Shown piece after piece: positions 4,497-20,505 of a DNA stretch of 21,208 nucleotides (positions are counted from its first letter, which is position 1; each line of letters begins with the position of its first letter). Under the pieces are notes generated by a model. The model saw nothing but the letters and a program-made list of their open reading frames with translations. It searched no databases and was not told where the DNA came from. This stretch comes from a virus. The position numbers were made by a program, and so were the translations under genes. The stretch lies in IMG/VR virus record IMGVR_UViG_3300013123_000046, positions 1 through 21,208 of that record; one strand, written 5' to 3'.

Positions 4497-4600
4497 AGTT
4501 GTAAAAATAATTTTAGCCACAAAAAAAGGCCGAGACACCTAACGATTTTTCGTTAAGTAACTCGGCCTTACTGCTCACTTGTGCAGCACGGGCTATACCT
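4496..4600 (-). ncRNA. RNA cassette copy 1: structured leader ending in a terminator-like hairpin
   Basis: On the minus strand the element starts near GGTATAG, which overlaps the stop codon of the 1911-residue gene. It continues with CCCGTG, a small hairpin CTGC/GCAG, and then a long hairpin with outer stem GGCCGAG/CTCGGCC (4528-4534 with 4561-4567) and inner stem TAACGA/TCGTTA on an AAAA loop. Seven U residues (4521-4527) follow, then GTGGCTAAAA, and the adaptor ATG is 24 bases on. The hairpin plus U-tract looks like an intrinsic terminator, yet it stands in front of a structural gene. Layout and flanking boxes match the copies near 12025-12109 and 18511-18602. Confidence 0.7.
4521..4567 (-). 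terminator. Terminator-like hairpin before the adaptor gene
   Basis: A 7-bp GC-rich outer stem GGCCGAG/CTCGGCC encloses a second stem of 6-8 bp with an AAAA loop and is followed by seven U residues. It would stop transcription from upstream unless it is read through or antiterminated, because the tail genes follow without another clear promoter. Confidence 0.75.
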
Positions 4601-7600
4601 TAATCCTTATAATACTCTTTTGATTATCTTTTTTCAACACTATTTTAGGCATTTTGATTTTCTTTACTTTAGCAAGTTTGGGCGCTTTAATCTTGATAGT
4701 TTTAATTTTGGGAGCTTTCAAAAGTTTAACTGATACCTTTTTAACCGCCTTAGCTTTTGCACCTGAATACTTAGATGTCATACTTTTAAGTTTTGCAATA
4801 GCTTTTTCTGCTTCATCTGCTGTCATTTTACCTGCCTCATACAAATCAAGTATGTCATTGGCTTTACTCGTGATTTGACCTTTATACTTAGATACTAACT
4901 TTTTGTCAAGCTCGGTATTTCCTGTAAGTTGAGGAGCTTTGGGTTGAAAGTTAAGGTCTATTGTTTTTGTTTTACCATCACTGGTTGGAATTACAATAAA
5001 GTTTTTATAACTTCCAACACTATTATTGTTTTTTACCTGCTCTTTAACACTTTCAAGCTGTCTATCATCATGCCTTTTTTGCAATATGGTATTGTATTCT
5101 GATACTTTATCCTGTGCGTCTATTACCTTTTGTGTCTGTTTTTCTCCAAGAACATTCGTACCTTCCCTAAAGTATTTCTGTGCTTCTTGTACGGAGTTTG
5201 GACCAAAAAGTGTCGTTTTAATTCTATTCCCTGCATTTTGAGGAATAACAAAACGTATCCTTCCAGATGGAGAAGTAGTATATCCTTGATTATATGATGT
5301 AACACCTTCAACACTCTTTTTTACCTGTCCGCCACCAAAGGGAGGAAGTAAATAAGTAAGTGGTTTTGTAAACTCTTTTCCTAAGTTTGCCTCACCCCTG
5401 ATTAAAGCTGGAACATCAGGAATGGCAGCTCCAATCGGTATTCTTCCACCAGTAAATGTTGAACTGAATGGTAACTGATCTCCTATATTTTGTACAAGGT
5501 TTTGTGTAGCCCTACCTTTCTTCATATTAGGATTTATATAATCCTCATATGCTTGTTGTGCTACTCCTACCGGATCAAATGCAGGTCTTCTACTTGTAAT
5601 CTTCTCGTATATATTGTTAAATATGTAAGAATAAAGGAATAGTTGACCGATAGCCGATGCAGCACCTATCTTACTAAAGTTTCTTGGAATATCCTTTGCC
5701 ATGAATGATAACTGATTATTCACTTCAAGCTGAAACATAGTTAATGCCCGAAGTGTCTGTGAATTAAACATTGTAGGGGTTGATCCAAGAGAGCGATCTG
5801 CCATCATCCTTGCCGCCCAGTCATCTGCACGTTTCATGGCTTGTACTGGCGATAGTCCTTTTTTAATACCCTCATTAAACTTGCTTCTAACGATTGTTTG
5901 TGCAGTAAAATTATCAATAGCCTTAAACAACCACGATGCTTTATCTCCTGCCTTTTCCCATATATTCATTGATATTCTGTCAGATCCAATACGTCTTGTT
6001 AAAAAGTCGGATCTATCAATAAATCCATCATCTTTTAACATACCCGATATGGTTTGTGCCATTCCTTTTATAAATGATGGCTTGTCTGTTGTTGCAAGTG
6101 ATTGAGTAAATGGAATATAGTTTGTAAGGGCGGATGATACATTTGCAGCAACCATATTAGCACCAACCTTTCTTTGTAATCCTGTTGCAAATGCATATAT
6201 TTTTCTGCCAAAAAAGCCTTCTGCTGATCTATCAAGCATTGATTTCTTACCCGCAAGGTTATTTATATATTCTGTTAAATCTGCAACAAAGTTAGTAAGA
6301 TGTTGTGTCCCTGCAAACTTTGCACGTATTGATTTTTCAAGCAATCGTAAGTTTTGGATATTGTCTGTATGATATATCTGTTTTGAAGCACCTTCGATAT
6401 ATTTGTCTATTCCCTGAATAGCATCAAAGTCAGTCACATCTGTTTTTCTCTGTAGTGCATTAGCAAAGAAGTTTTTACCCGGTTTAAAGTCTGCGGTAAG
6501 TCCATTAACATCCGTTGGGAGTGCAGTATCACGTACTGGAATACCAACCTGTTCAAGCAGATTTGTTACTTCCTGAAAGTGAGTAAAGTAATCTTTTCTT
6601 TTTGGTATAGGATCATAACCATTTTGTTTTAATACTCGGTTTATATCATTTAAGTAAGTATCATACTTTCCTCTAATAACATTTATTGCCCTCTCAATTT
6701 GCTGTGTTTTTACCTCACCGACCTTAGCAACTACATCACTTCTGTTTATTTTGTTTTCTCCTAATCGCTGAAGTAATTTAGACTCAACGCTTCGTGCCTT
6801 TATTCCTAGTGAGCTTATTTCTCTTCTTTCCCTATTTAGCCATCTAATACGATCTGCCTCTGCTTTTTTAACAGGAGCTATAAATCGTTCTTTCATCTCT
6901 GGAGCATCTTTGCCCATTATGTCCTCGAAATTACGCTCTATTGTTTCTCTTGAGAGCAGTGGTCTTGCTTTATCCTTCCACAATTCGGCTCTATCCATTA
7001 TATCTTTATCTAAAGCTCTACCAGCCTTATCAATAACAATGTTTCCTTTTTTATTCGATACATATTTTCCTTGTAATCCTTTTTGTGTTTGTTGTTCAAT
7101 AATCTCACCAACACTTTTAATGCCTGATTTAACCTGTTGCTTTTCGTTTGATACAGTATCCTTAAAAACCATTCTTGACCATTCCTTAAAATCAGCTTCT
7201 GCTCTTTGTTGGGGTGATTGTATTTTTAGTTTTGGTTCAGCATTATAGACAATATCTCTCATTCCCTTTGCTTGTTTTTCAAGTTCTTTTGCTTGTTTCA
7301 GTTCAATGGGAAGCGGTATAGTAGCTTTTGACTTTGAAGGTAATGATAGCGCTATGTCTAATAATTCCACATCTGTCCTATTTATATTTCCCTCATAATC
7401 ATTTGTTATTTCACGCATCCTATTTAAAACTCTATCTACAAGTTTTGCGTTCTTAGTGTATAAGGTTTCAATGTCTCCTTCTTGTCCTGCTTTGCTGTTT
7501 ACCATTTTCCGTAAAGATGAAAGGTCTTGTAAGTCATTTTTACTTAATTGTTCTATTTGTGAAAGGATTGCATCATTTGCCATTTGATCTTCATATCTTA

Positions 7601-10328
7601 TTTGATATCCTACCCTTCTTAATTCCTCAGCCTTTTTAAGTAGTGTAGTTCTTGGTTTAACTTCTGGTATCCCCTCAGCCTTAGTTTTATTTACCGTATA
7701 CATTATTCTAGGTAGTTTCTTTTTTGCCTGTATTTGTTCAGGGGTAAGGTTTGGTTTTATTTTTAATACTCCCCCTGTGGATTGGGATTTATTCCATTTA
7801 TCTATGAGTTGGGATTTGGTGGTTGCTCCGCTTTTATATGCTTCCGTTACATCTAATAATTCTCCCTTGCTATTTCGTAAAAATACTCTTGTTTTATTTA
7901 GAGGCAAGTCGTTCATGTTGGATGTTATTTTAAATCCTCCAAATCCCACCCTCCCTTCACTTGCAACATTTTCTCTTGTTGTTCCAAAAACTACTTGTAA
8001 ATCTTTGCCTTTTGGCGGTTTAACGAAAACATCTCCCTTTGAGAAATTTCCCCGACCCCAGCCACTTTTAATATATCCACTTTTTAAAACTTCATCTGGC
8101 TTATTAGTAGCATGAAAATATGTATCGGGTAACTCCTCTGCACTCTTATACTTCCTTGCTTCTTGGATAAGGGGGTCTACTCCTTTAGTGGATTGTGCTT
8201 TATTCCATATATCGGTGAGTTGTTTTACTTGATTCTGTTCAGGGCTTCTAGGAAGATTTTTCCCGTAGATTTTTTGGAGTTCTTGATATTCTGGGACTTG
8301 TTCTGTTGAGATTTTACCTTCTGTGATTGCTTGATTTGTGATTTCATATAATTGTCTCCTAATCTCACCCTTATTATAACTTATATTATTAAGAAAATCA
8401 ATAGGAACGATCTTTGCTTGTCTTTTAGGTCCACTATTGTCAATTATGGTGATATTTATATCACTGCCAAACTTTTCATTTAATTTCTTAATTGTTTCTT
8501 TGCTTGAATTATGTAGTTGGATATGCACATCTAAGGGAACATGCCTTTCACCCCTTGCACTTCTTACCATTACTCCTTCTCCCCATGCTTTTAACGGATC
8601 TCGATAAACATAAACTATTGAAGGCTTATACCCTTTTTGTAACGCCTGATTTATTTTTTTTACTGCACTTTCATAATTTGATAAATTAGAATCATAAATT
8701 ATTGAGAAATCATTTATTTCTCCGTCTAATATTTCTTTAATTGCCGATGTTTTCCCTACTCCAGAACCACCCGCCGTAAATAGAATCTCATTATTACCAG
8801 TTCCTTTTCTTGTTTCTAGTAATTGAGTGTATACTTTTTTGGCAAGTTGAGAAGAAGGCTCATGAACCTCTTTTGCGTTTGTATAGTTGTATCCAATTGG
8901 TTTAAATAAATCCTTGGCCATATCAGGATTTACAACATTTCCATTACGCTTGATATACTCATTAACGAGATTCTCTTTATTAGCGTTATAATAATCAAGT
9001 GCTTTCGCTTCTATCCCTTTTCCCTCCTCCCCTTTTATCTTAATGGTGGGCTGTGCTTTATTCCATATATCAGTGAGTTGGGATTTGGTTTTGATTTGGA
9101 CTGGTTTTATTCCTCCAATATCAGTATTATTTCCTTTTAAGTGTAATTCGCCACGATAGATATCGTCAAATTTTACTTTTTTGGGGTCAACATTAAAAGC
9201 CAATACAACATCTTTATCTTTTCCAATACCGCCATATCCTTTTTTGTTGGTTGTGAAGTAAATATCTCCACCTTCCGTTTTTGAACCAAATATGCCAGAT
9301 TGCTTTATTTTTTCTGCACTTTCTTTTGTTGTGGAGTGATAAAGAGTTATTGTTCCGTCCGAATTTGTAGGCAAGTATTCGGCGGTATAGGGGTCTTGTA
9401 GTTTTAATCCGCTTTTATCTCTAACTTCTATTTTTTGTGTTCCGTGTGCCTTCACAAACTCCTCTAGATTGTTTTTACCTTCTTCTCTTGCGTTTTTTGT
9501 TGCAAGACCATAAGTAAACTCACCGAGTCCTGGACCTCTATCTGCCTGTTGCATTATTAGATCCAAAGCATTTTTAAGCTGTTTGTTGGTTAGATTTGAT
9601 GCTTCTTTTCCAAACACGGCTTCACCAAGTGATTGGATATATTCACCCAATTCCCCCAAATTCTTACGGTTAGCATTTGGATTATCTTCAACTATTTGTG
9701 CAAATTTACCGACAAGATTTCTCACTTCAGGACTAAAACCTTTTCTTACTGTTTCTATTTGTTCCTTTGTAAAACTGTTCCCCGAAGGTCGGCCTCCCAT
9801 TGTAATTCCTCCTACTAAATAATTCATTGAGGTTCTATATGCGTCTGCAAGTGCAGGATTTTTTTTATATATCGGTGTATTTTGGATGTATTTTTCTGTA
9901 TTTTGTTGATTTTGTTCATTCACGCCACCGATAAACTTCCAGTCTCTTGCAAAATTTATAGCTTTAGGAACCATTGACACTATTCCTTTTCCTGTATTTA
10001 AAGCAGAGTTAAAACCTGGAGAACCTGCTCCTAAAAATTGTCCTAATGTACGCATTGGATGTTGTTCATACTGATATGGTTGAGATGCAGGAGCCTGATT
10101 AAATCCTGTTACAAATTCTGAAACTGCGGTTTTAATTCCCTGTTTATTCTGCTGTATCTGTTGAGGAGTGGAATATTGTGGAGCAAAAGGAATATATGGT
10201 GATACTTTTTGATATGTGTTTGAATAGGACTGATATCCTTGTTTAACCGCATTACCGATATCACTCAAAAACTTAGGCTGTTGGCCACCGCCAAGCAACC
10301 TTTTAACTTTATCTAAAAGGTTGTCCAT
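4593..10328 (-). CDS. Giant polyvalent virion/ejection protein with ART-like, zeta-kinase-like and ART-like modules
   Basis: The protein has 1911 residues. Seen in order: a Gln-rich N-terminus; an ADP-ribosyltransferase-like module at about 320-395 (LYHSTT, then GGDIYFTT, then RGEL); a linker with SQLTDIWNKAQ; a P-loop kinase module at about 450-660 with Walker A GGSGVGKTS near 518-526, resembling zeta toxin/UDP-GlcNAc kinases; a second linker copy; a second ART-like module at about 736-835 (YFHATN, GDVFV); a third linker copy near 837; a long helical, Lys/Glu-rich section; a helical domain at about 1390-1580 like those common to large phage polyvalent proteins (starts GANMVAANVSSALTNY); and a very basic tail from about 1847. 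Proteins of this size placed between head and tail genes are often ejected with the genome, and toxin-like domains would then act in the host early. Activities are inferred and were not tested against structures. The stop is TAG. Confidence 0.75.
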   Translation of the reverse strand: MDNLLDKVKRLLGGGQQPKFLSDIGNAVKQGYQSYSNTYQKVSPYIPFAPQYSTPQQIQQNKQGIKTAVSEFVTGFNQAPASQPYQYEQHPMRTLGQFLGAGSPGFNSALNTGKGIVSMVPKAINFARDWKFIGGVNEQNQQNTEKYIQNTPIYKKNPALADAYRTSMNYLVGGITMGGRPSGNSFTKEQIETVRKGFSPEVRNLVGKFAQIVEDNPNANRKNLGELGEYIQSLGEAVFGKEASNLTNKQLKNALDLIMQQADRGPGLGEFTYGLATKNAREEGKNNLEEFVKAHGTQKIEVRDKSGLKLQDPYTAEYLPTNSDGTITLYHSTTKESAEKIKQSGIFGSKTEGGDIYFTTNKKGYGGIGKDKDVVLAFNVDPKKVKFDDIYRGELHLKGNNTDIGGIKPVQIKTKSQLTDIWNKAQPTIKIKGEEGKGIEAKALDYYNANKENLVNEYIKRNGNVVNPDMAKDLFKPIGYNYTNAKEVHEPSSQLAKKVYTQLLETRKGTGNNEILFTAGGSGVGKTSAIKEILDGEINDFSIIYDSNLSNYESAVKKINQALQKGYKPSIVYVYRDPLKAWGEGVMVRSARGERHVPLDVHIQLHNSSKETIKKLNEKFGSDINITIIDNSGPKRQAKIVPIDFLNNISYNKGEIRRQLYEITNQAITEGKISTEQVPEYQELQKIYGKNLPRSPEQNQVKQLTDIWNKAQSTKGVDPLIQEARKYKSAEELPDTYFHATNKPDEVLKSGYIKSGWGRGNFSKGDVFVKPPKGKDLQVVFGTTRENVASEGRVGFGGFKITSNMNDLPLNKTRVFLRNSKGELLDVTEAYKSGATTKSQLIDKWNKSQSTGGVLKIKPNLTPEQIQAKKKLPRIMYTVNKTKAEGIPEVKPRTTLLKKAEELRRVGYQIRYEDQMANDAILSQIEQLSKNDLQDLSSLRKMVNSKAGQEGDIETLYTKNAKLVDRVLNRMREITNDYEGNINRTDVELLDIALSLPSKSKATIPLPIELKQAKELEKQAKGMRDIVYNAEPKLKIQSPQQRAEADFKEWSRMVFKDTVSNEKQQVKSGIKSVGEIIEQQTQKGLQGKYVSNKKGNIVIDKAGRALDKDIMDRAELWKDKARPLLSRETIERNFEDIMGKDAPEMKERFIAPVKKAEADRIRWLNRERREISSLGIKARSVESKLLQRLGENKINRSDVVAKVGEVKTQQIERAINVIRGKYDTYLNDINRVLKQNGYDPIPKRKDYFTHFQEVTNLLEQVGIPVRDTALPTDVNGLTADFKPGKNFFANALQRKTDVTDFDAIQGIDKYIEGASKQIYHTDNIQNLRLLEKSIRAKFAGTQHLTNFVADLTEYINNLAGKKSMLDRSAEGFFGRKIYAFATGLQRKVGANMVAANVSSALTNYIPFTQSLATTDKPSFIKGMAQTISGMLKDDGFIDRSDFLTRRIGSDRISMNIWEKAGDKASWLFKAIDNFTAQTIVRSKFNEGIKKGLSPVQAMKRADDWAARMMADRSLGSTPTMFNSQTLRALTMFQLEVNNQLSFMAKDIPRNFSKIGAASAIGQLFLYSYIFNNIYEKITSRRPAFDPVGVAQQAYEDYINPNMKKGRATQNLVQNIGDQLPFSSTFTGGRIPIGAAIPDVPALIRGEANLGKEFTKPLTYLLPPFGGGQVKKSVEGVTSYNQGYTTSPSGRIRFVIPQNAGNRIKTTLFGPNSVQEAQKYFREGTNVLGEKQTQKVIDAQDKVSEYNTILQKRHDDRQLESVKEQVKNNNSVGSYKNFIVIPTSDGKTKTIDLNFQPKAPQLTGNTELDKKLVSKYKGQITSKANDILDLYEAGKMTADEAEKAIAKLKSMTSKYSGAKAKAVKKVSVKLLKAPKIKTIKIKAPKLAKVKKIKMPKIVLKKDNQKSIIRIKV
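4609..4637 (-). promoter_or_regulatory. Sigma70-like promoter for RNA cassette copy 1
   Basis: A TTGAAA at 4632-4637 and a TATTAT at 4609-4614 are 17 bp apart, within the 3' end of the 1911-residue gene. The predicted start lies near GGTA at 4599, the same relative place as in the other two cassettes. The region is AT-rich, which raises the chance of a false match. The repeated arrangement at three sites is the main support. Confidence 0.5.
7775..7820 (-). repeat. Linker repeat copy 3 (KSQLIDKWNKSQST)
   Basis: This is the third copy of a roughly 35-45 bp repeat inside the 1911-residue gene. It encodes a segment ending in WNKSQST and shares both DNA and protein with the copies at 8188-8231 and 9052-9090. 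It closes the second ART-like module. Confidence 0.75.
8188..8231 (-). repeat. Linker repeat copy 2 (QLTDIWNKAQST)
   Basis: This second copy sits between the zeta-kinase-like module and the second ART-like module. Its DNA shares tttattccatatatc with copy 1 and the gtggatt stretch with copy 3, so nucleotide identity and not only protein similarity is retained. Confidence 0.8.
9052..9090 (-). repeat. Linker repeat copy 1 (KSQLTDIWNKAQ)
   Basis: This first copy lies between the first ART-like module and the zeta-kinase-like module. It carries the same WNKAQ core as the other two copies. Confidence 0.8.
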
Positions 10329-10338
10329 AAGTGGTTAT

Positions 10339-11616
10339 TTAACCTATATAATTTGATAATTGAGATAGATACTTAGGTTTTTGTTCTTCTTTAGTTGTTC
10401 CGTAACCTATTCCTGGATAAAATGGCGCACTCATGTTTCCTTGAGCGTCAAATGTCGGTATTCCATTTATCTGTCTAGGAGTTACATTTGCTGCTGTATA
10501 GTTTGATACCTCAGCTAGGTTACTTCTTAATGTTTGAATATCTTTTGCATTGTTCATAGCCCATTGTTCAAGCATTGACCGTCTATTTGATACCTCAGCT
10601 TTAGCCTGCATAAGAGCCTGTGTTGCCTGTTGTAATAACTGCGTTGATAGATTGGCTAAAGATTGCCCTTTTTGTAGCTGTCCCTGTGCCTTAGCCTGTC
10701 TTATTGCGTTTTGCTGTTCTCCAAGCCATTGAGTTATACCAAGAACAGCATTATCATAGTTTGTTTTAAGTTTACCCATTTCTTGTGTAACTACATTGTT
10801 TAGCTTTGATACTCTATCTTGTATATCATTTTCTATTGATCTTGTTTGCTCAAGTACTCCTGCACGCTGTTTACTTCCCATTTTGGTTAAAGCATAAGAG
10901 TACATATTGGCAGCACTTGAGTCTCCAGCGCCTCGTGTACCAAGTGTTACCTGACCTGTACGCATAAGATTGCCTATATTTTCGGCAATATCACGCAGTC
11001 CCTTAACCTGTTGTTCGGTATTCTTTCGACTTTGGGTATTAAGATCGCCCAGTGAGGATTGTTTTTGTAATCCTATGTCTGATACTCCTTGATTGTATGA
11101 ATTGGTAGTAATTCCTTTTTGAGCTTCAGCTTGTCCGGGTAATTCTCCCATCATATTGTCTAGTTCTCTAAAGTAGTTATCATATCCTGAGTTGATTTCA
11201 TTACGGGCTTGAGCTGAATAGTCTACTCCACCTCCACCGCTACCGACTGGGTTGCCCCATTGGTCTAATTCTCCATCTTTAATTGCATCTGCAAGTTTTT
11301 TACCATTTATATATGTGGTATATGGGTTTGGGGGTTGGCCTCCATTATTTGAGCTTGTATTTGGGCTTGTATTTGGTGAGCCCCATGATCCTCCACCACC
11401 GCCACCAGACGAAGGGCTTGTTGATGTAGGATTTTGTGATGTTCCACTTGAAAACCCACTTGAAAAACCAGAAGAAGATAATCCCTTATCATAATTAACC
11501 TGTGGATTATATAATGGTAAACCACCAACTGATTGACCGGGAGAAAATACTTTCTCCGACAAACCATAATCTGGTATATTAACTCCAAAGATGTTCCATT
11601 GACCTTTACTTGCCAT
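10339..11616 (-). CDS. Ser/Gly-rich coiled-coil virion (probable ejection) protein
   Basis: The protein has 425 residues. Residues 40-110 are low-complexity Ser, Gly, Pro and Asn, including a run of six Gly, and probably disordered. Residues 130-375 are strongly helical and Gln/Ala/Lys-rich, with long heptad-like stretches around QLQKGQSLANLSTQLLQQ and MQAKAEVSNRRSMLEQW. The C-terminus is short and Pro/Tyr-rich. This make-up, with its place directly before the giant protein (10 bases between genes), fits an internal virion or pilot protein that helps DNA leave the capsid. The ATG at 11616 has no Shine-Dalgarno sequence nearby. The nearest AAGGAGG is 31 bases upstream, behind a long structured leader. 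No family was recognised. Confidence 0.55.
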   Translation of the reverse strand: MASKGQWNIFGVNIPDYGLSEKVFSPGQSVGGLPLYNPQVNYDKGLSSSGFSSGFSSGTSQNPTSTSPSSGGGGGGSWGSPNTSPNTSSNNGGQPPNPYTTYINGKKLADAIKDGELDQWGNPVGSGGGGVDYSAQARNEINSGYDNYFRELDNMMGELPGQAEAQKGITTNSYNQGVSDIGLQKQSSLGDLNTQSRKNTEQQVKGLRDIAENIGNLMRTGQVTLGTRGAGDSSAANMYSYALTKMGSKQRAGVLEQTRSIENDIQDRVSKLNNVVTQEMGKLKTNYDNAVLGITQWLGEQQNAIRQAKAQGQLQKGQSLANLSTQLLQQATQALMQAKAEVSNRRSMLEQWAMNNAKDIQTLRSNLAEVSNYTAANVTPRQINGIPTFDAQGNMSAPFYPGIGYGTTKEEQKPKYLSQLSNYIG

Positions 11617-12024
11617 ATTATTGAAATAAAACTAATAAAAAGAGCTACCTCCTTATAAGCCCTCCGGGCTATGGGGGTGAATATACTACCTACCCTCCCT
11701 CTACTTCAATCTATTCTCCGCATTCATGTCTTGCCCTCCCTCCTGAAGTTGTTCCCTATCAGGTAGGTGGAGTTCGTCATGCGTTTGAATGAGTTGTCGT
11801 TTTGGGGCTCTTGTGGAAATTCCTTTTAGTTGGCGAACCTCTTGCGAGGAAAGATTGAGACGAGCACTCTGCCTCCCGACTTATTAAGCTCACGCTTCTT
11901 AGTCAGTAGCTGAAGGTATAAGGGTAGGGTAGCGGCCGCTACTTTAATATCTTCACCACCGAGAGTTAAGGAAAATAACCCTCAGCTACCGAACAAGAAA
12001 CCTGTTAAAGAGCTTTTAACCTAC
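11617..12024 (-). ncRNA. About 400 nt non-coding, strongly structured leader or RNA
   Basis: This is the only long gap between genes. In the minus-strand RNA several helices are visible. GTAGCTGA/TCAGCTAC (11982-11989 with 11906-11913) encloses a perfect 14-bp palindrome at 11929-11942. Two small hairpins have GNRA loops: AAGC-GTGA-GCTT (11886-11897) and CCTC-GCAA-GAGG (11838-11849). Further stems are CCTGA/TCAGG (11742-11763), ACCTACC/GGTAGGT (11762-11768 with 11688-11694, sharing bases 11762-11763 with the previous stem, so the two are partly exclusive) and AGCCC-GGA-GGGCT (11658-11670). It lies between RNA cassette copy 3 and the 425-residue gene. It could be a separate RNA, a regulatory leader, or remains of a gene (see the ORF at 11701-11880). 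I recognise no known RNA class. Confidence 0.5.
11701..11880 (-). other. 59-codon open frame without a normal start codon (possible broken small gene)
   Basis: Within the structured gap one minus frame is open from just after a TAA to a TAG at 11701-11703. Its translation is protein-like and polar, for example LNLSSQEVRQLKG and later QTHDELHLPDREQ. It has no ATG, GTG or TTG near its beginning. A GTG in a neighbouring frame at about 11893 would join it through a +1 shift. The only good initiation signal is internal: an ATG at 11727 preceded by AGGAGGGAGG, giving just MNAENRLK and a stop. It may be a frameshifted gene, a leader peptide, or chance within an RNA. Confidence 0.25.
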
Positions 12025-12076
12025 AAAAAATCCGCCTCTTGTTACTTCTGTTATTCACAAAAATAACTAAAGGCGG
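12025..12076 (-). terminator. Terminator-like hairpin after the glycosyltransferase gene
   Basis: The stem CCGCCT/AGGCGG with an internal GTTATT/AATAAC hairpin is followed by six U residues. It could end the head-gene transcript as well as the short RNA started by the promoter at 12113-12140. Confidence 0.65.
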
Positions 12077-12109
12077 TTTACTACCACGTATCTTGTAGCA
12101 AGACCTACC
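12025..12109 (-). ncRNA. RNA cassette copy 3: structured RNA starting at a near-consensus promoter
   Basis: On the minus strand the RNA would begin at about 12109 with GGTAGG. It then has GTCTTG, a small hairpin CTAC/GTAG (12095-12098 with 12081-12084) that could instead form TCTTG/CAAGA, and a longer hairpin with outer stem CCGCCT/AGGCGG (12032-12037 with 12071-12076) around an inner GTTATT/AATAAC. Six U residues (12025-12030) follow, then GTAGGTTAAAA. Its form matches copies 1 and 2, while its stem bases differ. Unlike those, it is followed by the 400-nt structured region and not directly by a gene. Confidence 0.7.
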
Positions 12110-12112
12110 CCC

Positions 12113-12140
12113 ATTATACTATGTAAAACTATGTTGTCAA
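12113..12140 (-). promoter_or_regulatory. Consensus sigma70 promoter
   Basis: A perfect TTGACA (12135-12140) and a perfect TATAAT (12113-12118) are separated by 16 bp, directly after the glycosyltransferase stop. The start would fall in the G-run leading into GGTAGG, the first bases of RNA cassette copy 3. This is the best promoter in the window. Confidence 0.85.
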
Positions 12141-12153
12141 GAGGAAAAAATGT

Positions 12154-13248
12154 CTAATCTTTCATATTTTTAACTATGTTTTCAAACAATTCTTTATATT
12201 TTATCCAATTTTTAGAGATATTTCGTTTATTTTTGACATAGTTATAGTTATTTTCTCCTATTTTCTTACGTTTTTGCTCATTTTCTACTAAATCTTTAAG
12301 ATTTTTATACCATTCTTCTTCATTTTGAGCAAAAATAATGTCAGAATTGCGTTCTCTTCTATATGGATAGACATTTGAGGTAATTGTTGGTAGTTTTGCA
12401 GCAGAATACTCAAGAAACTTTAAAGATGACTTAGATTTTGAGAAATTAGACGTATGAAGGGGAGCAACCGCTATATCAGCCATTGATATTTCCTTCTTCC
12501 AGAGCTTAATATACTCCATAAAGTCAGAGTGTCCTGGAATATATCTATATCTTTCTCCATAATTGGCAAATATATTCGTCATCATACCAATAGCCCAGAA
12601 GTGTACGTTTTTATACTCATTCAGTATTCTGTGCATGGCTTTTACAAACGGGGGGAAGTTGATATCGAGAAAATGGGTATGTGAACCTGAATAGACTATT
12701 ACAATCTTGTCATCTTCTACGTGAGGATCAGGATTATATAAATCAAGATCAATACTATTTCCTATCGAGTGAGTCATCGAACCAATACGTTTTGTGTAGT
12801 GTACTATCCTGTCTAAAAGAAAAGGTTGTGTGCAGATCAAGTGGGGAACGTCTTTAAGTATCGCCTCAACCCTGTCATGGTCTTTAGTTCCGGGATGAAG
12901 CCGCTCATACACAGGATTACTTTCGTCAATCTCCCATATATTATCATCCAAATCAAGTACAAGATTGCAATTATTTCGCATTCCGTGTACCCGTATGCTT
13001 ATATATGCCGCCTCCTTTGCTATATTATATCCTGAAAAGATAATATCAAACTTATTAGTTATATCCTTCCAGTTCTTGTCCCCATTTATAAAGGGATCAC
13101 GTCTTATCTCGATATTCCAGTCTGTATTCTTTTTTAAGTATAAAAGCGGCTGTACAACTCGAAAGTAATCAACGGCCGATGTCCTTTCGTGAAGCTGTCC
13201 TTTATCATCCCGATAATTATAGTTAAGCTCAAATCCGACTACATTCAT
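12154..13248 (-). CDS. GT-B glycosyltransferase (family 4/1-like)
   Basis: The protein has 364 residues from ATG 13248, which has GGGGAG 10 bases upstream. A TTG six codons earlier is a poorer start. The N-terminal half is Rossmann-like and includes LVLDLDDNIWE near residue 97. The C-terminal half has IVYSGSHTHFLD near 185 and ADIAVAPL followed by KSSLKFLEYSAAKLP near 280, the usual nucleotide-sugar-binding pattern of GT4-type enzymes. The last 60 residues are Lys/Asn-rich helix. It would transfer a sugar from an activated donor; donor and acceptor are unknown. Its place inside the virion gene block suggests it acts on a capsid or tail protein, or on the host surface. It may be a cargo gene gained by transfer, as it is flanked by a 96-bp gap upstream and a fresh promoter downstream. 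Confidence 0.8.
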   Translation of the reverse strand: MNVVGFELNYNYRDDKGQLHERTSAVDYFRVVQPLLYLKKNTDWNIEIRRDPFINGDKNWKDITNKFDIIFSGYNIAKEAAYISIRVHGMRNNCNLVLDLDDNIWEIDESNPVYERLHPGTKDHDRVEAILKDVPHLICTQPFLLDRIVHYTKRIGSMTHSIGNSIDLDLYNPDPHVEDDKIVIVYSGSHTHFLDINFPPFVKAMHRILNEYKNVHFWAIGMMTNIFANYGERYRYIPGHSDFMEYIKLWKKEISMADIAVAPLHTSNFSKSKSSLKFLEYSAAKLPTITSNVYPYRRERNSDIIFAQNEEEWYKNLKDLVENEQKRKKIGENNYNYVKNKRNISKNWIKYKELFENIVKNMKD

Positions 13249-13344
13249 AATGGCTGATCTCCCCAACTTCCTTTATAACGGTCTATATACTCATTTCTCC
13301 ATCAACCACCACAAACCTATCTTCATTTAATTTAATTATTATAA

Positions 13345-14360: not shown

Positions 14361-15269
14361 TTAAGCAGTTGCACCAAACTTAGCAACGTAAAACCAAGCT
14401 GACACAAGCCCTTTCACTACATACGAACCCGCCCATGAGGCAAGGCTAAATCTACCGGTAGCGTTTCCACTATCGATTTGAGTGTGAGGGACTATGTATA
14501 ACTTTGGAGGATCACCGTCTAAGTTGTATGAACCAACCGCATCAGCACCGTGTGCATATGTGTGATATACAGTTACAGTAGAAGATGTGGTTTTTGCATT
14601 TGCTGAAAGCAGGAATCTGAATCCATACAATTCACCCATCTCTCCTCTGTAAAGGTCTTTTACATCAGAGTAGGTTTTTGCATTGATCCAAGTTGAATCT
14701 GCAACCAGGTCAGCTTTCACATAAGGGGTTACTTTCCAAACGAACATTCCATCTGCATATTTACGTGTATAGGCCGCTTCCATTGTTCGTGCCATTTTGC
14801 GGATATTTGCCGCACTTATGACATCTGAAGCTGCAAGATCTGATACTGCACCTTTTGCATTTGCTAAATATGCTGTTCCATTGTCAAGTTCGTTTCTAAC
14901 TAGAGTATCCATCGTTTCTCTCATATTCTGTCCTACGACTGCAATCTTTTCCTTGTTGTTCACATCAACTGATGTGAGGGAAAGGAATCGACTGATTTTG
15001 ACTTTAGTTCCATACTCTGAAAGAGTTGCTGATACCGTTGCAGAAGTAAGAGATACTTCTGAAGGATCTTCACTTTCGGTCAAAGGTGTCGTTGCGACGG
15101 CTAAGGGAGAATAGCGATTGAATACGATTGTTTTACCCTCATTTTGAGATCGGGATTGTTTTTGCAAACCCTCCTCATAGACCTGTTCAAATTCGTTTCT
15201 TTTCAGAAACACTTTTGAATACAGAGTCATCATCTCATTTGAGAGCGTTGTGGTCGTTTCGGCTGCCAT
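14361..15269 (-). CDS. Major capsid protein, N4-gp56 family (HK97 fold)
   Basis: The protein has 302 residues. It matches the N4-gp56-type capsid pattern: an N-terminal helix (LSNEMMTLYSKVFLKRNEFEQ), an extended arm with IVFNRYSPLA and a TPLTE segment, then SRFLSLTSVD, a helical segment with ETMDTLVRNELDNG, TPYVKADLVADSTWI at about 179-193, and LYRGEMGELYGFRF at about 203-216. The last part is VVKGLVSAWFYVAKFGA. It forms the icosahedral shell. The scaffold gene lies directly upstream, as usual. The ATG follows an A-rich leader (AAGTTAAAAAAA) with no strong Shine-Dalgarno. Length is typical for the family. No protease gene is visible nearby, so the N-terminus may not be cleaved. Confidence 0.85.
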   Translation of the reverse strand: MAAETTTTLSNEMMTLYSKVFLKRNEFEQVYEEGLQKQSRSQNEGKTIVFNRYSPLAVATTPLTESEDPSEVSLTSATVSATLSEYGTKVKISRFLSLTSVDVNNKEKIAVVGQNMRETMDTLVRNELDNGTAYLANAKGAVSDLAASDVISAANIRKMARTMEAAYTRKYADGMFVWKVTPYVKADLVADSTWINAKTYSDVKDLYRGEMGELYGFRFLLSANAKTTSSTVTVYHTYAHGADAVGSYNLDGDPPKLYIVPHTQIDSGNATGRFSLASWAGSYVVKGLVSAWFYVAKFGATA

Positions 15270-15287: not shown

Positions 15288-16040
15288 TTAACGCACCGTA
15301 CCATACTTAGCTTCAATCTCCTCGATACTCATCTCATCAACCGATTTCTCAGCCTTTGAGACAGTACCGGTCGGACGGAGTGCAGCATCAACTGCTGCCT
15401 TAGCTAATTCCTGTTGTTTTTCTCCGACTGCGGACTCAACTGACTTTAGGTACGGCTTCATGTACTTATCAGTCAGCTTCTTAACCGATTGGGTAGGATT
15501 TTGCCTTACGGCATTAAATACCGCCTCAGTTACTGCCGCATTCAGCTCAGGATCGAAACTATCGCTATTCTTATCAAGTTGTGGGTATGTTTTCAGAGCT
15601 TCTGCCGCCTCAGTATTGATTTTATTGATGGTTTTTTCCTTTTCAATTTCAAGCCGGGTACGGTTAGCAATAAGAGATTCAAGCTCCTGAGAAGTCATGC
15701 TTCGTTCCTCACCTGTGTTATTCACATCAGATTGGTAATTAGGCATAACCGCCTGTGGCTGAGGCTCTTCATAAGAAACAGCCTCTGTATATTGTCCGAG
15801 CATTCCTTTCAGGTCTTGGACCTCTCTACTCAAGCGCTTTTTTTCATCCACTAACTCGTGAATGCGCTTAGTTGCGCCCATCGCTTTACCTTCTGTCTTA
15901 ACTTCATCTCCTTTACCCTCGCTGATCGGCTTGGATTCAGGAGCTTCCGTCTTGACTTCCGGTGCTGTCTTTTCTACTGTTGGCGACTCAGTAACGCTTT
16001 CAGCTTCAGCGTCTTTTACCGCCTGTTGTTCATTAACCAT
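15288..16040 (-). CDS. Probable capsid scaffolding protein
   Basis: The protein has 250 residues from MVNEQQ. A start eight codons earlier (16064) is also possible, and neither has a good ribosome binding site. The first 70 residues are Glu/Ser/Thr/Pro/Lys-rich and disordered. Residues about 75-100 form a coiled coil (RIHELVDEKKRLSREVQDL), the middle contains a further helix with SQELESLIANRTRLEIEKE, and the end is short and acidic (MSIEEIEAKYGTVR). A long acidic coiled-coil protein directly before the capsid gene is the standard position and form of a scaffold, which guides shell assembly and then leaves. The identification rests on these properties. Confidence 0.7.
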   Translation of the reverse strand: MVNEQQAVKDAEAESVTESPTVEKTAPEVKTEAPESKPISEGKGDEVKTEGKAMGATKRIHELVDEKKRLSREVQDLKGMLGQYTEAVSYEEPQPQAVMPNYQSDVNNTGEERSMTSQELESLIANRTRLEIEKEKTINKINTEAAEALKTYPQLDKNSDSFDPELNAAVTEAVFNAVRQNPTQSVKKLTDKYMKPYLKSVESAVGEKQQELAKAAVDAALRPTGTVSKAEKSVDEMSIEEIEAKYGTVR

Positions 16041-16092
16041 AATGGTTTTAGAACTTATAAACATACCTTTTAACGTAGGTAAGCCATCCGTC

Positions 16093-16379: not shown

Positions 16380-16713
16380 GTATAGCTTCCTCGACTGATT
16401 CGTAAGAATCTTCAACTTTGTTAATAATACTGTCAAGTAAGCCCTTTCCTAGTACTAACACTACTGCCCGTTTACCTATTTCATCCTCACCCATACCCGT
16501 TTCAACCGCCCCCCTCATTTGTTCATCAAGTCCCGTTTTTAATTCTTCAATATGTTTCTTTAGTGCATTCCATCCGTTTGTATCCCGAAGATCGTGAATA
16601 AACTTCTCATCCTCATCAACTCCCGCTTTTTTTGCCTTCTCAGCGTCAGGACGTACATATAAAGAACGGATGTTATCGTAAAATGTTGGTTTAATAGCCG
16701 ACGGCTTGCTCAT
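16363..16713 (-). CDS. Small helical protein following the portal gene
   Basis: The protein has 116 residues, charged and mostly helical, with FYDNIRSLYVRPDAEKAKKAG near the start, WNALKKHIEELKTGLDEQM in the middle, and a hydrophobic helix VVLVLGKGLLDSIINKVED near the end. Its ATG overlaps the portal stop (ATGA), so translation is coupled, and its end overlaps the CxxC protein gene. No family was recognised. Coupling to the portal suggests a role in head assembly. Confidence 0.6.
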   Translation of the reverse strand: MSKPSAIKPTFYDNIRSLYVRPDAEKAKKAGVDEDEKFIHDLRDTNGWNALKKHIEELKTGLDEQMRGAVETGMGEDEIGKRAVVLVLGKGLLDSIINKVEDSYESVEEAIHGESK

Positions 16714-18506
16714 TTGGTCCTTGTTGAACTGGGTTGAACTGGTAATCCCTGTTGTGGTTGTGGTGGAATTTCCCCCATATCAGATGACATTTGCCGTACT
16801 GCCTGCAAGAACTGATTTTGATGATCCTGAAGTATTGCATCATCCTCTTGCGCTCCGGGAGAAGTAGTGTCTTGTGTTATCATAATTTTATCCCAATCGC
16901 TTATTCCCATCTTTGACACAAGACGGGTAAGAAGCTCGGTAAACCTAAACTGTGTACCCTCTTGCTGTTGCATGATTTGTAAAAGTTGCGGATACTTCAT
17001 TAAAAGCTCCAATAACATAAGAAGGTTTTGTTGTTGTTTCGACTCATCAAGCTGGTAAGAAGAACCCGACACAATTTCATAATCATAAAGTACTGATCCT
17101 GTTTTCTTTCTGTCAATCTTCAATACTCCCTTTTTCTCATCCCATTGATCTGCAAGTTCGGGATATTGGTTTATAAGTTTTGTTATTTCCTCATTAAACA
17201 TGCGCACTGCAACCTTACCCTGCTGACGGTTGCTCATAAGATTAACCATCTTTTTGAATATATCTGTTACTGCGAGTTCAATATAGAACCTGTCCCATGC
17301 ATCCCTTGCATTTTCCCTTGCGTTTTGTTGCCTTAATGCCTCAGGAGTTTTACCAAAGGTGGTATCCACATTACTTGAAACGGTTGTATCGGTTGTACCG
17401 AAATGATTAAGTAGTGATGCGTTTGCAAGGTTATACACTGCCTGTAGTGTCTGTATTCCTTGTGGAGAAAGATTTATTGCTCTTGCTGCCTGATCGACGT
17501 TTCCCCGTGCTAACCAGTTTGCTCCAGCAACTCGTTTAATCGAAGATTTGACGATAATATCTTTATTGAATACAACAGGAGGAAAGATTGACATCTTTGC
17601 ACTATCTAACCCCAAGTTCCAAGAGGAATTGATTACATACTGCATAGATTTACCCCGCTCTGCATCTCCCATTCCCATAAAGTCATCGTCTCTTGGAATA
17701 GCATATTTACACCCAATCGGGAACTCCCCATCTTTGTTTGGATTTTTTCTGTCCCTTATAAACTGAAACTCGGCAGAAGGTACTGCATCAACCCATCTAT
17801 CCCGCTCATACATGGATATAACCTCATAGGGACCAACACCCTTCTCTCCTTCTTTGTCCGGGTATTCGTTCTGTTCCCGTTTTGTTTTCTCGGTGTCATT
17901 TGTTTTATCTGAAGATTTATCTTTTAGTTTTTTTATTACAGCATCTATGTTTTCAAACCCGTCTTTTTTCTTTAATCCTTCAAACCATGACATCGGTCTG
18001 AAAGTTCTAACGATAATATAATCCGAGTCCTCAAGTGATAATGGCCCAACCTGCGGAAAGATATTCCATATATTAAGAAGGTACATATCAGGACCTACAT
18101 ATCCGTTTCGTTTTACGTCCCAGTCAACCATATAGAATGAAGTTCCATATATTTTAGAAAGTCTGTGAAGAAGTCTCAGCTTTACTAAAAAAGGAAACTG
18201 AGCATTAGCATTTGGAACGATATATTTATCAAGCATTAAATTCATAAGCTTTGCAGTTACCTCATCATTTCGTGATATTGCCTTTACTTTACCTGTTGGA
18301 ACCTGTGCCATTACCCTTGCTTCTGATTCAAGAATATAAGTAGAGATCTTATGATCAAACACCCTTGATTTTGTTGTGTTTGATAACCTATCTTCTAAAT
18401 TACCATCAAATAAATCCTCAACTTCCTCCCATAACGCTCTTTTTGTGGATAAATAGGTATCGGCTGCGTCATACCGAGTTTGTATTAGGTCTTGTAGTTT
18501 TGACAT
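16710..18506 (-). CDS. Portal protein
   Basis: The protein has 598 residues from MSKLQDLIQTRY at 18506. The frame is open to 18569, but those 21 codons would cross the terminator-like hairpin and U-tract of RNA cassette copy 2. Portal features: a helical N-terminus (YDAADTYLSTKRALWEEVEDL), a beta-rich stretch with YGTSFYMVDWD and MYLLNIWNIFPQVGPL, a wing-like region with a Lys/Glu-rich loop at about 190-220, a long helical stem with SSWNLGLDSAKMSIFPPVV and TPEALRQQNARENARDAWDRF, and a Gln/Pro-rich C-terminus of the barrel or tail type. Twelve copies usually form the DNA channel at one capsid vertex. It follows terminase, as expected. There is no strong ribosome binding site. Confidence 0.85.
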   Translation of the reverse strand: MSKLQDLIQTRYDAADTYLSTKRALWEEVEDLFDGNLEDRLSNTTKSRVFDHKISTYILESEARVMAQVPTGKVKAISRNDEVTAKLMNLMLDKYIVPNANAQFPFLVKLRLLHRLSKIYGTSFYMVDWDVKRNGYVGPDMYLLNIWNIFPQVGPLSLEDSDYIIVRTFRPMSWFEGLKKKDGFENIDAVIKKLKDKSSDKTNDTEKTKREQNEYPDKEGEKGVGPYEVISMYERDRWVDAVPSAEFQFIRDRKNPNKDGEFPIGCKYAIPRDDDFMGMGDAERGKSMQYVINSSWNLGLDSAKMSIFPPVVFNKDIIVKSSIKRVAGANWLARGNVDQAARAINLSPQGIQTLQAVYNLANASLLNHFGTTDTTVSSNVDTTFGKTPEALRQQNARENARDAWDRFYIELAVTDIFKKMVNLMSNRQQGKVAVRMFNEEITKLINQYPELADQWDEKKGVLKIDRKKTGSVLYDYEIVSGSSYQLDESKQQQNLLMLLELLMKYPQLLQIMQQQEGTQFRFTELLTRLVSKMGISDWDKIMITQDTTSPGAQEDDAILQDHQNQFLQAVRQMSSDMGEIPPQPQQGLPVQPSSTRTK

Positions 18507-18510
18507 ATAT

Positions 18511-18602
18511 ATTTTAGGCCATAAAAAAAGCCGGAGCCAATCACTAATATATGATTGATTCCGGCTCAAGTACTTATTCTGTACTCACGGCCTCAAACTA
18601 CC
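18511..18602 (-). ncRNA. RNA cassette copy 2: structured leader before the portal gene
   Basis: The minus RNA would start at GGTAG (about 18602). It continues with GGCCGTG, a small hairpin AGTAC/GTACT (18581-18585 with 18569-18573) with loop AGAATAA, then a long hairpin with outer stem GCCGGA/TCCGGC (18530-18535 with 18560-18565) and inner stem CAATCA/TGATTG. Seven U residues (18523-18529) and ATGGCCTAAAAT follow. The portal ATG is 16 bases beyond the U-tract. It shares form and end-boxes with copies 1 and 3 while its stem bases differ. Confidence 0.7.
18523..18565 (-). terminator. Terminator-like hairpin before the portal gene
   Basis: The stem GCCGGA/TCCGGC plus CAATCA/TGATTG is followed by seven U residues and lies only 16 bases before the portal start. 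It would separate terminase from head gene expression unless read through. Confidence 0.75.
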
Positions 18603-18606
18603 TATT

Positions 18607-18634
18607 ACTATAACAGATTATTTTCCATTGTCAA
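18607..18634 (-). promoter_or_regulatory. Sigma70-like promoter for RNA cassette copy 2
   Basis: A perfect TTGACA (18629-18634) is 16 bp from TATAGT (18607-18612), across the stop codon of the upstream gene. The start would fall at GGTAG near 18602. The same spacing and start motif occur at the copy 3 promoter. Confidence 0.75.
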
Positions 18635-18911
18635 TCGATTTTATATATTCATTCATTGCCTTTTTGCTTAAAAAATGCTTATTCTCCAGTCTTGTATCAT
18701 TACAAGGCTCTTTTACCGCTTCATATATATATTCAACTCTGTTATGCAGTATATATGGCTTACGTTTTGCTTCTTTATTCTTAGGATCGTTACTGTCGTA
18801 GCGTATCAAATACCCATTCTTTATCTCAATGTGTCCGGGATATAGGGTAACTCCATCATTTAATATGATACTGGTTTGGTCGCAGACAACCTGATTGTGT
18901 TTGTTTATCAT
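18618..18911 (-). CDS. Small hypothetical protein, third of a trio
   Basis: The protein has 97 residues from ATG 18911. A GTG eight codons earlier is an alternative. It has a beta-hairpin-like stretch LNDGVTLYPGHIEIKNGYLIR near residues 20-40, then a charged loop and a helical C-terminus (LSKKAMNEYIKSIDNGK). It overlaps the preceding 69-codon gene by 56 bases in another frame. The IEIKNGYLIR segment resembles the beta segments of its two upstream neighbours, which suggests a shared fold. Its function is unknown. Its 3' end carries the -35 box of the portal-side promoter. Confidence 0.55.
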   Translation of the reverse strand: MINKHNQVVCDQTSIILNDGVTLYPGHIEIKNGYLIRYDSNDPKNKEAKRKPYILHNRVEYIYEAVKEPCNDTRLENKHFLSKKAMNEYIKSIDNGK

Positions 18912-19065
18912 TGTTGTACTTAACCCGCTTAGCACGGGTAATTTTTAATGTTTCTATAACCGGCTGACCGTCTTTTATCAATACATCAAATGAAACTGAT
19001 CCAAAACTCAATGAATCAGCCTCTCTTTCCACTATGGCGTGAAAGAGCGCCTTTTGTTTTGTCAT
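18856..19065 (-). CDS. Small DUF2292/YezD-like protein, second of a trio
   Basis: The protein has 69 residues from ATG 19065, which has GGAG 10 bases upstream. Eleven more codons are open upstream, but that start would lie deep in the preceding gene. Residues 17-42 read FGSVSFDVLIKDGQPVIE and TRAKRVKY, the pattern of the small DUF2292 (YezD) family, in which a short helix is followed by a beta hairpin with an invariant-like DG. The role of that family is not known. It overlaps its neighbours by 50 and 56 bases, more than usual for this window. The family assignment is by pattern memory and is tentative. Confidence 0.55.
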   Translation of the reverse strand: MTKQKALFHAIVEREADSLSFGSVSFDVLIKDGQPVIETLKITRAKRVKYNNDKQTQSGCLRPNQYHIK

Positions 19066-19228
19066 TCCTGCGGTACTCCACATATTCTCGCATGACATAA
19101 TCTATAATTTGTCCCTTTTGAACTCTAATCTCAAAATGATATAAACCGTTTACAACTATATCAATACCCCGATCTATATCAATATGTGCCTCAATATTTG
19201 ATTCTTTAATTTTGTCTTGAAAAGTCAT
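19016..19228 (-). CDS. Small hypothetical protein, first of a trio
   Basis: The protein has 70 residues. Its ATG overlaps the large terminase stop (ATGA), so it is coupled to terminase translation. Residues 20-52 contain VVNGLYHFEIRVQKGQIIDY, a strand-turn-strand pattern like the next two genes, ending in a basic, Ser/Gly-rich tail that lies within the overlap with the next gene. No family was recognised with confidence. Confidence 0.5.
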   Translation of the reverse strand: MTFQDKIKESNIEAHIDIDRGIDIVVNGLYHFEIRVQKGQIIDYVMREYVEYRRNDKTKGALSRHSGKRG

Positions 19229-20505
19229 AAATATAAACCCGTTTTTTTATCAAATAAATCGTTCTCTGGAAAGTCATCATCCTCATCTGTCGGTCTTAAA
19301 CTCTCCATTCCATATCTTACTGCATCAACACAGTGATCCCAGCCCTCCTCTGGTTCATTAAGAGGATTACCTGTTTCTTTATCAATTTTCCATGCGTAAT
19401 TATCATATTCTTTTAATAAATGAATACTCCTTCTTGTTACGCTTATCTTTTGATCCTTAACATACTGTATCCCCTGATTAACACTTCCCGAACCTTTGTT
19501 TGATGCAACTATATTAACGCCATATAGTTTTATCTCGTCAATACTTTTCGGCTCTGCTGAATCGGCTATTACTATTGTCTGCGGTTGTTTTTGATTAAGA
19601 ATTGTATCGGCAATTAGTTTATTACTCATTCCCCGTTGATACATCTCCTCATCAAGAATATACCCTCCGTTATAGTAATATATTGCTATAAGCGTTGTAG
19701 GATCGTTTGTATAGCCAAAATCAAGCCCTCTTCTTTCAAGTCGTGCTTCGTGTGGGACAGAGTCAATAACTTGCCAATTATTAAATATCTTACCCTGTAC
19801 AATTTCAGCAACTAAACCACACACAACATTCCAATAGTGAGATGGTTTTGTAATACGGTATTCTTCATACTTTATTACACTTTGCGGAGCTATATTTACA
19901 ATGTTATCTTTATAATTTGTGTTTATAAGAGTAGTATCGGCAATTCCATCTTTTAACTGAAAGTTATAGTATCCTTTTTCTTCGCTATCTGTTAGTTTCA
20001 TCCATCTCTGTATAATCCAATGTGTTTTTGCCGGGGGATTAAGAAGAAAAATAATCTTTATATCACCTTTTATAGTACGAAGTGAGTCATCAAGTTGCAT
20101 AAAGTCCTCTTCTGGTATTTCATCAGCCTCTTCAATAATAACGTAGTTATATGACGCTAATGATTTTAGCTTTGCTTTCTGATCTCCTGACGACTTTCTA
20201 AACCCAACTGCGTTGATACTATTTGCTTTGTACTCAATCTTCATTAAGGTATCATTTATTTGTAATTGGGTTTCAACCTCATTCTCTTCTGCACGATCAA
20301 TAATCTCTCTATATATTGAATTACGGATATCTCCCAAAATATATCGCATTATGGCACATCTGAAGTAATCATCAGCCATGAGTTTTGCTAGGGCGAGTTG
20401 TGAGGCAACTGTTGACCTCCCTCCGCCTCTCCCACCCATAAGAATAAAGTATCTTGACTTATCAATAAATAAGGGTTTATATACCTCATTTACTTTCTGT
20501 TTCAT
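19225..20505 (-). CDS. terL: Terminase large subunit (ATPase and nuclease)
   Basis: The protein has 426 residues and is the motor that packages DNA through the portal and cuts the concatemer. The ATPase half has a Walker A at residues 24-32, GGRGGGRST, with Arg where Lys is usual, a Walker B with VIIEEADEIPEED near 122-134, and a coupling segment IIFLLNPPAKTHW. The nuclease half has LDFGYTNDP near 262, IVIADSAEPKS near 310 and WDHCVDAVRYG near 388, giving three Asp residues of the RNase H-like metal site. This is the Terminase_3-type arrangement and full length. The start overlaps the small terminase gene by 20 bases. No Shine-Dalgarno is visible, so coupling to the upstream gene is likely. 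Confidence 0.92.
   Translation of the reverse strand: MKQKVNEVYKPLFIDKSRYFILMGGRGGGRSTVASQLALAKLMADDYFRCAIMRYILGDIRNSIYREIIDRAEENEVETQLQINDTLMKIEYKANSINAVGFRKSSGDQKAKLKSLASYNYVIIEEADEIPEEDFMQLDDSLRTIKGDIKIIFLLNPPAKTHWIIQRWMKLTDSEEKGYYNFQLKDGIADTTLINTNYKDNIVNIAPQSVIKYEEYRITKPSHYWNVVCGLVAEIVQGKIFNNWQVIDSVPHEARLERRGLDFGYTNDPTTLIAIYYYNGGYILDEEMYQRGMSNKLIADTILNQKQPQTIVIADSAEPKSIDEIKLYGVNIVASNKGSGSVNQGIQYVKDQKISVTRRSIHLLKEYDNYAWKIDKETGNPLNEPEEGWDHCVDAVRYGMESLRPTDEDDDFPENDLFDKKTGLYL

Follow-up and report, generated by a model that had tools for sequence, protein, structure and literature searches.

How virion genes are activated in phages outside the model systems is largely obscure. The viral contig analyzed here raises this question in a concrete form: neither a phage RNA polymerase nor a known antiterminator was detected in its clade, and yet what is probably an RNA gate is repeated at the late gene blocks. 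The window, an IMG/VR viral contig of 21,208 bases, carries all of its main genes on the minus strand. From high to low coordinates, these are the terminase large subunit (TerL, 19225-20505), the 70-aa conserved protein SP1 (19016..19228), the small conserved protein SP2 with a basic tail (18856..19098), portal (16710-18506), a scaffold-like gene (15288-16064), the major head protein (MCP, 14361-15269), a glycosyltransferase (GT, 12154-13266), a 425-aa gene (g425, 10339-11616), a 1911-aa gene for a giant protein (4593-10328), tail1 (3828-4496), and tail2 (1867-3831). The names scaffold, tail1, and tail2 are positional assignments, and a relative of tail1 gave a weak match to a virion structural protein. 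No record among 50,697 phage genomes matched the window DNA or its portal protein. Shine-Dalgarno sequences were mostly absent from gene starts in the window (including the MCP start at 15269), whereas most relatives carry a strong one at MCP, e.g., GGAGGTGA; this contrast suggests that the window phage has a different host. Near one end of the window, minus strand 21143-21088 reads CGCTGATG...GAGGGTG...CATCAGCG.CACCCTC, a possible H-type pseudoknot located just upstream of a 58-aa ORF and behind a TATAAT. No obvious equivalent was seen in three genomes with a related ORF.

The original prediction placed three cassettes on the minus strand at 18511-18634, 12025-12140, and 4511-4637. Their positions and letters were confirmed, and each contains the described order of promoter, small hairpin, GC-footed hairpin, and T6-7. 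We refer to them as A (portal block), B (g425 block), and C (tail1 block). In each, an internal loop can link the small hairpin to an outer helix that uses the 5′ arm of the terminator as its 3′ strand, which makes this two-tier hairpin a candidate antiterminator. Cassette A has its promoter at 18607..18634 (TTGACA-16-TATAGT, 11/12), the candidate antiterminator at 18563..18592 (outer GGC/GCC, inner TGAGTAC/GTACTTG, loop AGAATAA), and a predicted intrinsic terminator with T7 at 18523..18565 (stem foot GCCGGA/TCCGGC); the last two elements have the final 3 nt of the antiterminator in common, and the portal ATG follows at 18506. In cassette B, the promoter lies at 12113..12140 (TTGACA-16-TATAAT, 12/12), the candidate antiterminator at 12075..12105 (outer GGT/ACC, inner TTGCTAC/GTAGTAA, loop AAGATACGTG), and the predicted terminator with T6 at 12025..12076 (CCGCCTTT/AGAGGCGG), with only the last nt of the antiterminator common to both. 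Cassette C comprises a promoter at 4609..4637 (TTGAAA-17-TATTAT, 10/12), a candidate antiterminator at 4565..4593 (outer GCC/GGC, inner TGCTGC/GCAGTA, loop ACAAGTGA), and a predicted terminator with T7 at 4521..4567 (GGCCGAG/CTCGGCC), again with the final 3 nt in common; the tail1 ATG lies beyond it at 4496. The apical loops thus vary between positions of one genome, so a single loop-reading protein is not obvious.

In a promoter scan of 20 kb, cassette B ranked best and cassette A second best, and the total of promoter-like sites in the window was no higher than in shuffles. Folding energies of the three cassette RNAs were 5.7-6.2 sd below those of dinucleotide shuffles, and the full-length RNAs all fold into the terminator (−30 to −36 kcal/mol). 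Other parts of the first description fared less well. The pieces named GGTA and YCKTG have no clade consensus. The box RTRGYYTAAAA can pair with the 5′ leader in the window copies, but it is no clade-wide element: an outer stem joining the leader to this box behind the T run, which gives a three-way-junction look in the window, was rejected for the clade, where it did no better than swapped controls (p=0.19), and the pairing is therefore taken as lineage-specific or due to chance. Rfam gave nothing above the gathering score in the window and 11 relatives, and likewise no match around cassette B at a permissive threshold. Between cassette B and g425, the minus strand at 11617-12020 has ~400 nt with no long ORF; it is G+C-rich with many possible stems, folds only 1.6 sd better than shuffles, and had no Rfam match.

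With the portal, head protein, tail1, and g425 as queries, ~220 relative loci were collected from viral contigs, many of them from the same genomes. The clade is a large, uncultured podovirus group, and the cassette arrangement recurs across it. A full cassette, defined as TTGACA and an extended −10, ~35 nt, and then an intrinsic terminator with a T run, was present in 63 of 82 deduplicated portal upstream regions (220 nt), and a terminator in 69 of 82, whereas dinucleotide shuffles of these regions gave cassettes in 0/820 and terminators in 0.5%. In those 63 regions, a predicted intrinsic terminator lies between promoter and gene, which is the layout of an attenuator. When 20 genomes were compared, cassettes stood before portal in 13/18, g425 in 7/19, and tail1 in 10/19, and once before the gene after tail2. 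These counts are lower bounds because the rule is strict (the tail1 cassettes of G002, G017, and G024 are plainly present yet were missed), and under the same rule no cassette was found before TerL, SP1, the post-portal ORF, scaffold, MCP, GT, or tail2. On the coding strands (1.9 Mb, related contigs included), 133 of 202 terminators had a promoter 15-70 nt upstream, whereas 25/202 had one in a window of the same size placed 100 nt farther upstream and 15/202 had one downstream; for terminators of the other strand, the count was 6/150. The view that the cassette splits the late genes into blocks thus extends to relatives, in which the same block starts (portal, g425, tail1) are marked. The cassette is real and conserved. 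A literature search for this arrangement in phages found none, and the cassette itself did not turn up in any library or paper searched.

Several features of the relatives concern the genomes more broadly. A conserved block of genes of ~165-363 aa lies between MCP and g425 in relatives G001-G026 (e.g., L170:14273-19995) and is present in 16-18 of 20 genomes; the window matched only its last gene, the glycosyltransferase. Relative G020 encodes a NinG-like protein (L171:16333-16728, minus; Pfam E 6e-15) on the strand opposite to its late genes, which hints at a lambda-like early region. One relative, a contig of 4.7 kb, is assigned to a Chloroflexi MAG, which does not suffice to name a host.

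The anatomy was compiled from 86 unique cassettes. At the −35, each base of TTGACA is present in 94-99% of them; the −10 is similar to TGnTAtaaT, and the spacer between the two is mostly 16-18 bp with no conserved letters apart from TG. The distance from the −10 to the terminator stem was 33-37 nt in the middle half of the cassettes, and the T run was mostly 5-8. One could ask whether such a unit does more than insulate, with the terminator ending the upstream block and a fixed readthrough setting the expression level with no regulator. The genomes are compact, the terminators would also stop transcripts of the upstream genes, and readthrough of intrinsic terminators is never zero. However, insulation does not require a distance of 33-37 nt between promoter and stem in half of the cassettes, it would waste a near-perfect promoter, and it leaves the covarying hairpin and its overlap with the terminator arm unexplained. 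We consider this explanation decidedly unlikely.

Covariation was assessed in a MAFFT alignment, unfitted to structure, of 14 tail-type copies, which have in common TCTTTACCTAC-AnGAGTG-GTAGGTTAGACG. Two-sided changes were found in 6/6 pairs of the small hairpin and 6/7 pairs of the terminator. On four of five measures, none of 500 shuffles came up to the observed value; the signal was lost when partners were slid. The stems therefore covary as had been claimed, the small hairpin as well as the terminator. Further covarying copies in related phages, which had been proposed as a check, were found in the portal upstream regions and with a covariance model. The model recovered copies outside its seed at L214:5244 (E 4e-13), L197:3012 (1e-9), L193:4777 (9e-8), L203:2113 (3e-7), and L011:11186 (4e-6). 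It also matched cassette C (model R1, 4522-4601), a copy that is itself in the seed. Most portal copies, whose loops and stems differ, were missed by this tail-type model. Counting any hairpin between promoter and terminator gave a weak difference (11.1 vs. 9.6 shuffled), because lone hairpins are easily found.

The same data bear on the suggestion of a put-like role, in which, as in HK022, two stem-loops would act directly on RNA polymerase as RNA-only antitermination. Two stem-loops do stand right after the promoter, as in putL (PMC9378689). The second of them, however, has T5-8 behind it in almost every copy and shows the covariation of a terminator, whereas put suppresses distant terminators and needs none of its own. 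A fixed contact with RNA polymerase would also be expected to conserve sequence throughout the clade, and this was not seen. With the second stem itself a terminator, this role is not favored, and we regard it as highly improbable.

The candidate antiterminator arose from the tail copies, in which the bases preceding the small hairpin can pair with the start of the terminator. An example is G017 (GTCT-TT-GCCTAC-ACGAGTG-GTAGGT-T-AGAC), and other outer helices are GGC/GCC in L095 and GGCGTC/GACGCC in L215. The nascent RNAs of cassettes A, B, and C all adopt the two-tier shape when folded, with the outer helices given above. Across cassettes, the energy drop of the nascent RNA was 3.43 kcal/mol with the native terminator arm, compared with 2.27 for swapped arms (Wilcoxon p=2e-10) and 2.36 for shuffled arms (p=4e-9 vs. 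native). A two-tier hairpin was possible in 62/87 cassettes, compared with 48.9 ± 3.4 for swapped and 50.9 ± 2.9 for shuffled arms, the permissive geometry allowing many chance pairings (~50/87 in controls); tighter loops gave 49 vs. ~34 ± 3. In the tail alignment, outer pair 13-40 was kept in 13/14 copies, with two double changes, and pair 14-39 in 14/14, while the neighboring pairs were kept in just 9, 7, and 6 of 14. The outer helix is short and, by the chosen rule, absent in 25/95 cassettes. As these tests use the same data that prompted the idea, the overlap of antiterminator and terminator is well supported but not proven.

If a protein reads the cassette, the question is whether it does so through DNA at the promoter or through the RNA. 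If antitermination were processive, as with Q, AlpA, or N, a protein of the phage would be loaded at the promoter or on a nut-like small hairpin, and the loaded RNA polymerase would ignore the cassette terminator and later ones. The outer layout is alike, with promoter, short leader, intrinsic terminator, and late genes (PMC6606751, PMC9371919). However, there appears to be no Q-type site, since the spacer has no clade-wide conserved letters and no excess of common letters among promoters of one genome. A −10-like pause motif was not in excess in the first transcribed bases (0.43 observed vs. 0.50 shuffled), and 15 contigs gave no match to the lambda Q family or PF06530. With respect to lambda nut and N, TCTTTA was found in tail-type copies only, where it adjoins the conserved hairpin in a faintly boxA-boxB-like manner, but it lies inside the candidate outer helix. 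We judge this type of antitermination unlikely, although the hairpin might still act in a nut-like way. The transcribed parts of cassettes of one genome, by contrast with their spacers, share letters above permuted sets (P 0.001-0.010), as expected of an RNA-reading factor; this likeness could also come from duplication between sites (G020, G023).

Our preferred reading, which we hold to be somewhat more probable than its negation, is that a promoter-coupled transcription attenuator gates each late block and is probably set by a phage RNA-binding factor. Each block would open with a strong host-type promoter whose transcript enters the attenuator at once. The early RNA could form the two-tier hairpin, with an inner stem of 4-7 bp and an apical loop of mostly 6-8 nt, continued by a small internal loop and an outer helix of 3-6 bp. 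The outer helix takes its 3′ strand from the 5′ arm of the terminator, and so the two structures would be mutually exclusive. By default, the far more stable terminator would win and a short RNA of ~55-85 nt would be released; termination is taken as the default because the terminator is the structure that the full-length RNA of each window cassette folds into. Where a factor holds the antiterminator, RNA polymerase would read into the block. This mechanism is a supported hypothesis: from the cassettes, their positions, hairpin covariation, and the preference of the overlap for the native arm, all of which are computed, we infer termination, readthrough, a factor, timing, and the on/off switching itself. 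Conditional attenuation is accordingly the favored one of the three roles originally offered, because the small hairpin runs into the 5′ arm of the terminator.

The third of those roles was release of short RNAs, in which the cassettes would make trans-acting RNAs of ~55-85 nt and the genes behind them would be incidental. The RNA freed by each cassette would indeed be short and end in a stable 3′ hairpin. The cassettes, however, are always at the start of the same late genes, the T run leads straight into ATG in 51 cases, and sequence conservation between copies is low. Release as a purpose accounts poorly for both position and overlap, and we find it very unlikely. In those 51 cassettes, a Shine-Dalgarno-like tetramer occurred in the last 7 nt of the terminator 3′ arm in 21, compared with 3 for the 5′ arm. 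The terminator hairpin might thus also hide the start site in transcripts from upstream, although the asymmetry could have other causes.

Under the attenuator reading, the most likely factor is an RNA-binding protein of the phage, and SP1 and SP2 would be the leading candidates. Their genes overlap (18856-19228, minus), are conserved in the clade, and lie directly upstream of cassette A; SP1 directly precedes the portal gate in 18/20 genomes and SP2 in 17/20, with 123 and 106 matches, respectively, among the relative loci. Both are predicted to fold as a helix and beta-hairpin with a confident core, and they show distant kinship (hhalign E 8e-6, probability 84%). Neither had a convincing match in Pfam, PHROG, or PDB. 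A fold search with SP2 gave a best E of 1.5, which is not meaningful, and its assignment to DUF2292 (Pfam) was rejected as too weak (3/28 members, best E 0.037). The role of SP1 and SP2 as the switch factor is a guess from their position and the basic C-terminal part of SP2. A bolder version, that across the clade each of the repeated late gates is opened by SP1/SP2 as a new family of tiny RNA-binding antiterminators with a helix-beta-hairpin core of ~50 residues, is doubtful but not far-fetched; if true, late genes would be switched in a way that differs from Q, N, put, and a phage RNA polymerase. Among 15 contigs, one of them the window, T7-type RNA polymerase (PF00940), the lambda Q family (PF03589), PF06530, and the CAT domain (PF03123) were absent, with positive controls for T7, lambda, and the CAT control genomes; these absences are not final because several of the contigs may be fragments. 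A CAT-domain RNA-binding protein could still be supplied by the host. The ANTAR protein search gave no match, but neither did its control.

If the attenuator reading is correct, late genes would be under local, block-by-block attenuators instead of one processive antiterminator, and the cassette looks like a reusable RNA on/off switch for virus-particle production. The module is small enough for in vitro work, and two tiny proteins would gain a testable function. Overall, the original prediction held in part: block division, covariation, and further copies are supported, and of its proposed roles conditional attenuation is favored and the put-like one is not.

Among known systems, HK022 put has two stem-loops with which RNA polymerase ignores distant terminators with no dedicated protein (PMC9378689). 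The cassette likewise has two stem-loops right after the promoter, but its second stem is a terminator, which places it outside put. Lambdoid Q pR′ and the AlpA system resemble the cassettes in having an intrinsic terminator behind a strong promoter and ahead of late or lysis genes (PMC6606751, PMC9371919); no spacer binding site, pause motif excess, or Q protein was found for the cassettes, however, and there are several per genome rather than one. In the RAT leaders of LicT, BglG, and SacY, a protein holds a hairpin that carries an internal loop and overlaps the 5′ side of an intrinsic terminator, so that the terminator cannot form (PMC3369936). The candidate antiterminator of the cassettes would share this hairpin, internal loop, and overlap, but no CAT-domain protein was found for them (15 contigs), and their attenuator lies ~35 nt after a dedicated promoter and is repeated before each phage virion block. 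For ANTAR regulators (EutV/NasR), the antiterminator stem also overlaps the terminator, and one regulator serves several leaders (PMC3369936); those leaders have two hairpins with A1/G4 loops, whereas the cassettes have one small hairpin with other loops. With the CAT protein, Q site, pause motif, and Q protein looked for and not found, and with a terminator as second stem, the cassette is not filed under RAT, ANTAR, Q/AlpA, or put. By analogy, it would work most like the RAT or ANTAR leaders.
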